Shown piece after piece: positions 30,151 through 32,442 of a DNA stretch of 41,403 bases. Position numbers and translations under genes: made by a program. Every line of letters starts with the position of its first letter. Position 1 is the stretch's first letter. Below the pieces are notes generated by a model. The model was not told the origin of the DNA. It searched no databases and saw only the letters and a list, made by a program, of their open reading frames with translations. This DNA is from an uncultured Flavobacteriaceae bacterium. GTDB lineage: Bacteria > Bacteroidota > Bacteroidia > Flavobacteriales > Flavobacteriaceae. The stretch lies in NCBI GenBank assembly GCA_913061125.1, contig CAJXUB010000011.1, forward strand, positions 1-41,403, in the 5' to 3' direction.

Positions 30151-30183
30151 AAAAAAAAGGATAAACTAAAACAGTTTATCCTT
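30151..30183 (-). terminator. Rho-independent terminator of the ribosomal operon
   Basis: On the minus strand AAGGATAAACT/AGTTTATCCTT forms a perfect 11-bp stem (30173-30183 with 30157-30167) with a 5-nt loop, followed by eight T. It lies 24 nt after the rplQ stop and ends the S10/spc/alpha transcript before carA. Confidence 0.92.
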
Positions 30184-30207: not shown

Positions 30208-30678
30208 TTATTCTTCCTCGTCAGTAGTGGCAACTGGCGCAGCAGCAGCAGGTTTTGCTTTTCCACCTCTACGACTTCGGCGTGTTGTTTTCTTCTTAGG
30301 CTTATCGGCATTGTACAACTCGTTGTAATCTACCAGCTCAATCATAGCCATGTCGGCATTATCTCCCAATCGGTTTCCTAACTTGATGATTCTGGTGTAT
30401 CCCCCCGGTCTGTCACCAACTTTGGCAGCAACGTCTCTGAAAAGGGTGGCCACAGCGGCTTTCTGACGCAGTCTACTAAAAACCACACGGCGGTTGTGGG
30501 TAGTATCTTGTTTAGATTTTGTCACTAACGGTTCGATAAACTGCTTAAGCGCCTTGGCCTTTGCTGTAGTCGTATTAATGCGCTTGTGCTCAATTAGCGA
30601 ACAAGCCATGTTGGCCAACATTGATTTTCTGTGGGCCGTTTTTCTTCCTAAATGATTAATTTTCTTTCCGTGTCTCAT
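30208..30678 (-). CDS. rplQ: 50S ribosomal protein L17
   Basis: Large-subunit protein near the exit tunnel; 156 residues. The core is classical ([24 protein letters not shown], then [10 protein letters not shown]). After about residue 125 there is a basic then Ala-rich and acidic tail ([24 protein letters not shown]) not present in E. coli L17 (127 residues). It is the last gene of the ribosomal operon. A 72-nt spacer with a large RNA hairpin separates it from rpoA. Confidence 0.97.
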
Positions 30679-30690
30679 GGTATTGTCTGT

Positions 30691-30753
30691 TAACCACCAT
30701 CTTGCTTCAACCCAGAACTAATGCAGTACTGGGGCGCAAAATATGGTGTGTTA
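30691..30753 (-). promoter_or_regulatory. Long imperfect RNA hairpin between rpoA and rplQ
   Basis: Read on the minus strand, complementary segments nest in order: TAAC/GTTA (30750-30753 with 30691-30694), CACCAT/ATGGTG (30743-30748 with 30695-30700), TTTGC/GCAAG (30736-30740 with 30701-30705, one G-U), CCCAG/CTGGG (30729-30733 with 30711-30715) and ACT/AGT around a GCATT loop. That is about 23 pairs over 63 nt, starting at the rpoA stop codon and ending 12 nt before the rplQ ATG. No T-tract follows, so it is not a terminator. A regulatory leader or processing site is likely (inference). Confidence 0.6.
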
Positions 30754-31743
30754 GTCTTTGTCTAATTTATATTTTGCCAGGTCCATTCCAAAACTAAGGC
30801 CCTTCACACTAACCAATTCTTCTAGTTCTGTTAGTGATTTTTTTCCAAAGTTTCTAAACTTCATTAGATCGTTCTTGTTGAACGACACCAAGTCGCCAAG
30901 AGTATCTACTTCGGCTGCTTTCAAACAATTTAATGCACGAACGGAAAGGTCCATGTCAATTAATTTTGTTTTAAGCAACTGACGCATATGCAGGGACTCT
31001 TCGTCATAAGTTTCAGTTTGCGCAATCTCATCCGCTTCGAGAGTGATTCGCTCATCAGAGAATAACATGAAGTGGTGAATGAGGATTTTTGCAGCTTGCG
31101 TGAGAGCATCTTGAGGGTTTATAGAACCGTCTGTAATGATTTCGAAAACAAGTTTTTCATAATCCGTTTTTTGTTCCACTCGGTAGTTCTCCACGCTGTA
31201 TTTTACGTTTTTTATGGGGGTGTAAATTGAATCTGTAAAAATTGTTCCAACGGCTGCAGCTGATTTTTTATTCTCTTCTGCAGGAACATATCCACGCCCT
31301 TTTTCAATGGTGATTTCCATTGATATATTAACCTTAGGATCCAAATTACAGATCAAGTGGTCGGAATTTAAAATCTGGAATCCAGAAATAAATTTCTGAA
31401 AGTCTCCAGCAGTTATTTTATCTTGACCAGAAATGGAAATGGAAACAGACTCGTTATCAACTTCGTCGATTTGACGTTTGAAACGGATTTGTTTCAAGTT
31501 TAATATCATTTCAGTTACATCTTCTACAACACCAGTAATGGTTGAGAATTCGTGATCTACACCTTCGATTTTAACTGAAGTAATTGCAAAACCTTCCAAT
31601 GAAGATAGTAGTACCCTTCTCAAGGCATTTCCAACGGTTAAACCATAACCGGGTTCTAGAGGTCTAAATTCAAATTTGCCTTCATAATCTGTAGAATCAA
31701 TCATGATGACTTTATCGGGCTTCTGAAAATTTAAAATTGCCAT
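30751..31743 (-). CDS. rpoA: DNA-directed RNA polymerase subunit alpha
   Basis: Alpha subunit that nucleates core assembly; 330 residues. The N-terminal assembly domain (about 1-230) includes the conserved [21 protein letters not shown] (27-47). The C-terminal domain (about 250-325) has the helix-hairpin-helix segments [19 protein letters not shown] and [10 protein letters not shown], used for contacts with UP-element DNA and activators. It starts 21 nt after rpsD and ends 72 nt before rplQ. Confidence 0.98.
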
Positions 31744-32386: not shown

Positions 32387-32442
32387 GAAAGCCGTTGGGA
32401 ATTCAGGTCTTAATCTTATCCTTCGCCAACGGTTGGTCTTTC
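32387..32442 (-). promoter_or_regulatory. Candidate S4 leader structure in the rpsK-rpsD spacer
   Basis: On the minus strand GAAAG (32438-32442) pairs with CTTTC (32387-32391), and CCGTTGG (32426-32432) pairs with CCAACGG (32392-32398). This gives a 12-bp stem with a 5-nt bulge (ACCAA) on one side and a 27-nt apical loop. The bulge offers an alternative: CCAAC/GTTGG (32432-32436 with 32426-32430) would form a small local hairpin using the same GTTGG, so two exclusive folds are possible. It ends 16 nt before the rpsD ATG. Confidence 0.55.

Follow-up and report, generated by a model that had tools for sequence, protein, structure and literature searches.

The 72-nt spacer between rpoA and rplQ (30679..30750, minus strand) in the 41,403-nt stretch of uncultured Flavobacteriaceae DNA that we analysed, here called the window, encodes a conserved RNA element on the mRNA strand that is tied to rplQ, the gene of ribosomal protein L17. 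The best explanation is probably that the element is a new ribosomal-protein leader, used by L17 to repress translation of its own gene, a reading to which we give a probability of roughly 60%.

The ribosomal protein operon is encoded on the minus strand of the window, and the hairpin lies between rpoA (31743–30751) and rplQ (30208..30678), the gene putatively controlled by it. Both genes and the spacer were placed from the ORF list and the sequence; rplQ was recognized by its translation, which also served as the search query in relatives. An earlier reading, made from the sequence only, had given the gap as 72 nt and called it long for this operon. The length was reproduced, with rpoA ending at 30751 and rplQ starting at 30678, but the gap is not unique, as rpsK and rpsD are separated by 94 nt. 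This second long gap contains the Rfam S4-Flavobacteria leader (RF03141, 32393..32431, minus strand, matched above the gathering score) upstream of rpsD, in the same operon but in a different spacer and thus separate from the rpoA-rplQ hairpin. An intrinsic terminator follows rplQ (30157..30183, minus strand; terminator scan and fold, z −4.8). With such a strong terminator at its 3' side, rplQ closes the unit and is the sole gene downstream of the hairpin, which by the usual inference points to L17 as the ligand.

Nearly all of the gap folds into one imperfect stem, as had been claimed. The hairpin from 30753 to 30691 (minus strand) comprises 24 computed pairs, where about 23 had been counted, and ends 12 nt ahead of the rplQ ATG. 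Its folding energy is −23.7 kcal/mol (z −3.6, 0 of 200 shuffles equally stable), and that of the whole spacer on the same strand is −24.5 kcal/mol (z −3.5, 1 of 200 shuffles equally stable). Such values are unconvincing by themselves, because z fell below −2 in 29.5% of 44 motif-free spacers, compared to 61% of 192 motif-bearing ones. Folding energy alone is weak evidence for the hairpin, and the case rests on the comparison with relatives. The frequency of stable folds among motif-free spacers would fit a chance hairpin without function, but covariation, a near-invariant core and a distribution confined to rplQ contradict this explanation, and its probability is negligible. No run of T or U follows the stem on the minus strand of the spacer, by sequence or by terminator scan, and the scan lists no minus-strand terminator within the hairpin, in agreement with the earlier claim that the structure is not a terminator.

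The conserved hairpin, from P1 to its partner strand P1', spans about 30695..30748 (minus strand, as are all parts that follow), as judged from the fold, the model match and covariation. Our covariance models matched the window at 30756–30685, with 54 bits for the first and 60.7 bits for the second. In P1, the 5' strand CACCA (30744..30748; fold, covariation and relatives) pairs with UGGUG (30699–30695; fold and relatives); relatives have about five pairs here, with very variable sequence. Next on the 5' strand comes a UA bulge (30742..30743), conserved in relatives, which leads to P2, formed by the nearly invariant strands UUUUGC (30736..30741; relatives and covariation analysis) and GCAAGA (30700..30705). 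P2 of relatives reads (U/A/G)UUUGC with GCAAGA, its first position standing opposite an invariant A, often not as a standard pair. An asymmetric internal loop follows, with GC on the 5' side (30735–30734) and UUGAA on the 3' side (30706..30710) in the window, and with UC or GC facing UUGAA-like or UUUGGUA-like bases in relatives. The variable apical stem-loop P3 (30711..30733) is paired with differing sequences in relatives, although pairing guided the alignment of P3, which biases its statistics towards pairing. The arms of the hairpin occur at very variable spacing. From the 3' end of P1 to the rplQ AUG we counted 16 nt in 81 of 161 loci and 11 nt in 54 of 161 (range 10–19), the shorter distance mainly together with the UUUGGUA-type loop. 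Six loci (L036, L044, L077, L127, L217 and L221) have spacers of 139–153 nt, with extra sequence between the rpoA stop codon and the hairpin; in L036 this includes a long inverted repeat.

Compensatory changes were found in relatives, the check on the stem that the sequence-only reading had itself proposed. Already within the window's genus, P1 reads CACCA/UGGUG in the window versus CAUCA/UGAUG in eight motif-bearing congeners. Both-sided changes affected 9 of 15 pairs in an alignment of 34 sequences (of 36, with L046 and L056 omitted). Among 68 model-aligned sequences, 95.3% of the cells pair, sliding the pairing partner lowers this value to 35–60%, and 71 cells carry double changes versus 17.9 in shuffles. 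Since counts of double changes ignore relatedness, a phylogenetic null was added, in which columns were simulated independently on a tree (150 simulations). The tree held 161 non-redundant sequences out of 176 motif loci, identical rplQ starts having been removed, and the alignment was anchored on P2 alone; a duplicate locus (L001, identical to L002) and two 23S loci (L100 and L101) were also taken out. Of 483 column pairs, the three ranked highest were the predicted P1 pairs 10-51, 9-52 and 12-49, with values unreached in 150 simulations. The fourth-ranked pair, 9-54 (E 0.0067), is not a predicted one, and the fifth, 11-50 (E 0.02), is again a predicted P1 pair.

The stem had been described as starting at the rpoA stop codon. 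It does fold there in the window, with 30691..30694 pairing with 30753–30750, but these outermost four pairs (columns 4–7 with 53–56 of alignment A1) showed no covariation in relatives under the phylogenetic null. The outer helix was therefore dropped, and the supported element extends from about 30748 to 30695. P2 hardly varies and thus can hardly covary. One swap of a P2 pair, from UUUGC/GCAAG to UUUGA/UCAAG, was found in L123 and L125, and one P2 pair is broken in L256, a model match. The string filter used for locus counts demands TTTG and CRAGA-type bases, so that invariance at these bases is partly imposed; L256 was the sole model match that it rejected. One P2 pair was U.G in all 67 distinct model matches, a count made without the string filter, yet with a model built from filtered sequences.

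A constant U.G pair would be A.C in the antisense strand, which argues for an RNA element on the mRNA strand. This bears on the alternative that the spacer holds a DNA element, either a promoter or a dyad-symmetric operator for a transcription factor. The −7 box of Bacteroidota promoters is TAnnTTTG, and the conserved UA(U/A/G)UUUG resembles it, one base short. However, the invariable U.G pair, the compensatory changes throughout both arms and the very variable spacing of these arms make a DNA element very unlikely; a scan for sigma-70-type promoters, which does not cover those of Bacteroidota, gave no minus-strand site in or near the spacer.

To describe the distribution we rely on an evenly drawn sample of the family, in which the covariance model detected the element in 112 of 199 genomes and 111 of 198 genera, with one match each (105 of 170 among good-quality genomes). 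Inspection of the spacers placed all 112 matches directly upstream of rplQ. Among the 87 genomes without a match, five also gave no match for rplQ. Of the rplQ loci taken from genus and family, 68 of 98 carry the hairpin (30 do not), as do 78 of 80 in a named-genome set; the two sets overlap and favour close relatives, so that 112 of 199 remains the evenly drawn figure. Named motif-bearing records include Winogradskyella, Psychroserpens, Tamlana, Aquimarina, Bizionia, Mangrovimonas and Mesoflavibacter. Within the window's genus, nine of the ten genomes with an rplQ match carry the element, the window included, and one (L011) does not. Beyond the family, the first model matched 37 of 296 genomes in a sample of the order and the second 12 of 396 in a sample of the class, all of them Flavobacteriaceae, although the large scans of genomes used stricter filters and may miss weak members; all 30 matching loci opened from the order sample lay before rplQ. 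The impression from the sequence that the hairpin looks conserved was thus borne out. Relatives lacking the stem, which had been named as evidence against it, do exist (the 87 family genomes without a model match, and L011), but the absence is not general.

No known family accounted for the element, an outcome that the sequence-only reading had left to a search. Searched against Rfam 15 at thresholds up to E 10, the window spacer gave no match, the only one in the searched stretch being a chance snoRNA-like match inside rpoA; at E 1 none was found in the spacers of 12 relatives, eight of them with the motif. The L17DE model (RF01708) likewise matched neither the window spacer nor those of relatives. 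L17DE, too, is a structured RNA associated with the L17 gene and may serve feedback control, but it lies downstream of that gene in Lactobacillales and Listeria (PMC2864571), while the Flavobacteriaceae element lies upstream. Also related in kind is the L17 leader listed for Actino- and Proteobacteria in PMC7247131, a predicted leader that serves rplQ alone and whose ligand was inferred from the gene. It belongs to other phyla and is set apart here by description; no family of Rfam 15, a release that may or may not include this leader, matched the window spacer at E 10. For Flavobacteria, the same source lists leaders of S4, S15, S16 and L19. We found no description of the rplQ hairpin motif in the literature, supplements aside, and it may be in print elsewhere. 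In the literature searched, L17-linked RNA elements are described from Actino- and Proteobacteria and from Lactobacillales and Listeria, but from no member of the Bacteroidota.

The S4-Flavobacteria leader shares with the hairpin the operon, the bacterial family and the nature of a hairpin leader for a ribosomal protein, but it lies upstream of rpsD, and its model misses the rpoA-rplQ spacer. The presence of this leader in the operon raises the alternative of a second S4 operator, in which S4 rather than L17 would bind the hairpin and repress rplQ. A second S4 site before rplQ was indeed proposed for E. coli (Meek and Hayward 1984, cited in the review PMC10931766, according to which strong evidence for it is lacking); that site has the same operon position, the rpoA-rplQ spacer, but is unproven, belongs to another phylum and is likened to ours by position, not by sequence. 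The RF03141 model, however, found no match in the spacer even at E 10, its only match being 32393–32431. Moreover, the S4-Flavobacteria leader, present in 158 of 199 family genomes, was found in 94 of the 112 that bear the element and in 64 of the 87 that do not, so the two are not tied. We consider a second S4 operator improbable.

The sequence-only reading had offered two functions for the hairpin, control by L17 or processing by an RNase. For an L17 leader speak the conserved structure with its covariation, the near-invariant core, the lack of a terminator in the hairpin, the single copy per matching genome and the constant position before rplQ; conserved, covarying structure and a location consistently upstream of a ribosomal protein gene on the same strand, as in all 112 matches, are what is expected of ribosomal protein leaders. 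A processing site would be recognized by an endoribonuclease that splits rplQ from the rpoA mRNA and sets its stability. The intercistronic position and the long stem suit this function, but a near-invariant inner stem and loop between freely varying outer and apical stems resembles a specific protein site, and we regard processing as unlikely. Similarly doubtful is a leader that acts on rplQ in response to another protein or a small molecule. Assigning a ligand from gene position alone is uncertain, as section 5 of PMC7247131 points out; on the other hand, rplQ is the sole downstream gene before the terminator, and leaders of single ribosomal protein genes are usually read as autogenous. In PMC7247131, leaders serving one ribosomal protein gene are assigned to that protein.

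We infer for the L17 leader that the hairpin is regulatory, that L17 is its ligand and that it acts by translational repression. The hairpin would be a cis-acting ribosomal-protein leader, internal to the operon, with rplQ as the only gene whose translation it controls. L17 in excess of free sites on 23S rRNA would putatively bind it, the contact being the near-invariant UUUGC/GCAAG stem with the UA bulge and the asymmetric loop. Stabilized by L17, the hairpin, whose outer stem mostly stops 16 or 11 nt short of the AUG, would hinder 30S initiation on rplQ. In this way the output of L17 would be trimmed with no effect on rpsD and rpoA; those two genes are served by an S4 leader of their own farther upstream. 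Structure close to the start codon and A residues at −3, −6, −12 and −13 modulate initiation in F. johnsoniae (PMC6847099). A hairpin locked by bound protein, with its end at about −12 to −17, would lie against the region of A contacts and could hinder 30S binding. Some observations count against an L17 leader: the hairpin does not resemble 23S rRNA, 87 of 199 genomes have no match, L256 has a broken pair, and the column pair 9-54 was not predicted.

Resemblance to the rRNA site is an optional feature of leaders, and none between the hairpin and 23S rRNA was detected. A supposed look-alike in helix H101 of E. coli 23S rRNA was rejected, as the 3' end of the 23S rRNA of a congener does not show it. 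The best half-motif string in 23S agreed at 9 of 10 bases, near chance by a rough estimate. A UUUUGC/AGCAAG string pair in 23S was rejected as a mimic, as the consensus structure does not pair its two strings. The first covariance model found nothing at E 1 on two 23S loci. With filters off, the second gave weak matches on a congener's rRNA locus (best E 0.61), none of them inside the 23S match at 1501–4322 of L101. The window's own genome gave no match for 23S. L17 helps to fold H47–49 of 23S rRNA (PMC9935924).

The start codon of rplQ has a context of its own at motif loci. GUC stands directly before the AUG at 144 of 161 motif loci versus 0 of 35 motif-free loci, and the sole GUC among 46 filter-negative loci belongs to L256, itself a model match. 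Parsimony counted 7 changes at each GUC base versus 49 at −4. Where GUC is present, the A favoured at −3 is lost; the triplet might base-pair with GAC of codons 2–3 around the start codon, and it may have a role in initiation or repression. It is not essential, as the window has ACC at this place (30681–30679). The first rplQ codons, ATGAGACAC (30670–30678, minus strand), were invariant at 161 of 161 motif loci, third positions included; they also occur in nearly all motif-free loci inspected, with L084 differing.

Compact, nearly invariant and present in more than half of the Flavobacteriaceae genera sampled, the hairpin would offer a direct handle on how expression of rplQ is balanced independently of rpsD and rpoA. 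The same holds for repression of translation by leaders where initiation relies on start regions that are A-rich and free of structure. An annotation family could be made from the covariance model. In its fullest form, which we propose tentatively and hold at somewhat below even odds, the L17 reading describes a new leader class in 111 of 198 genera, in bacteria that do without Shine-Dalgarno pairing; this class would work together with the GUC before the AUG and be replaced by different hairpins at the same site in some other genera of the family, as a case of repeated reinvention of L17 control at one place in the operon.

Other hairpins do occur at the same site in some motif-free genomes, in keeping with reports that leaders are narrowly distributed. 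Seven motif-free loci (L079, L080, L086, L088, L090, L213 and L214) share a different conserved hairpin of the form TTTCTTACAGGA..GGG..CCC..TTGGAGAAATA. As a string pattern this form was found once each in 6 of 199 family genomes, five times placed before rplQ (G193 is the sixth genome). In an alignment of these alternative hairpins (A4), for which no model was built, two groups are one base out of register. A third form before rplQ, CTTCTATTGGA..GGGA..TCCC..AAGGAAG, was seen in L070, L072 and L273, and it is perhaps related to the TTTCTTACAGGA..GGG form by a one-base shift.
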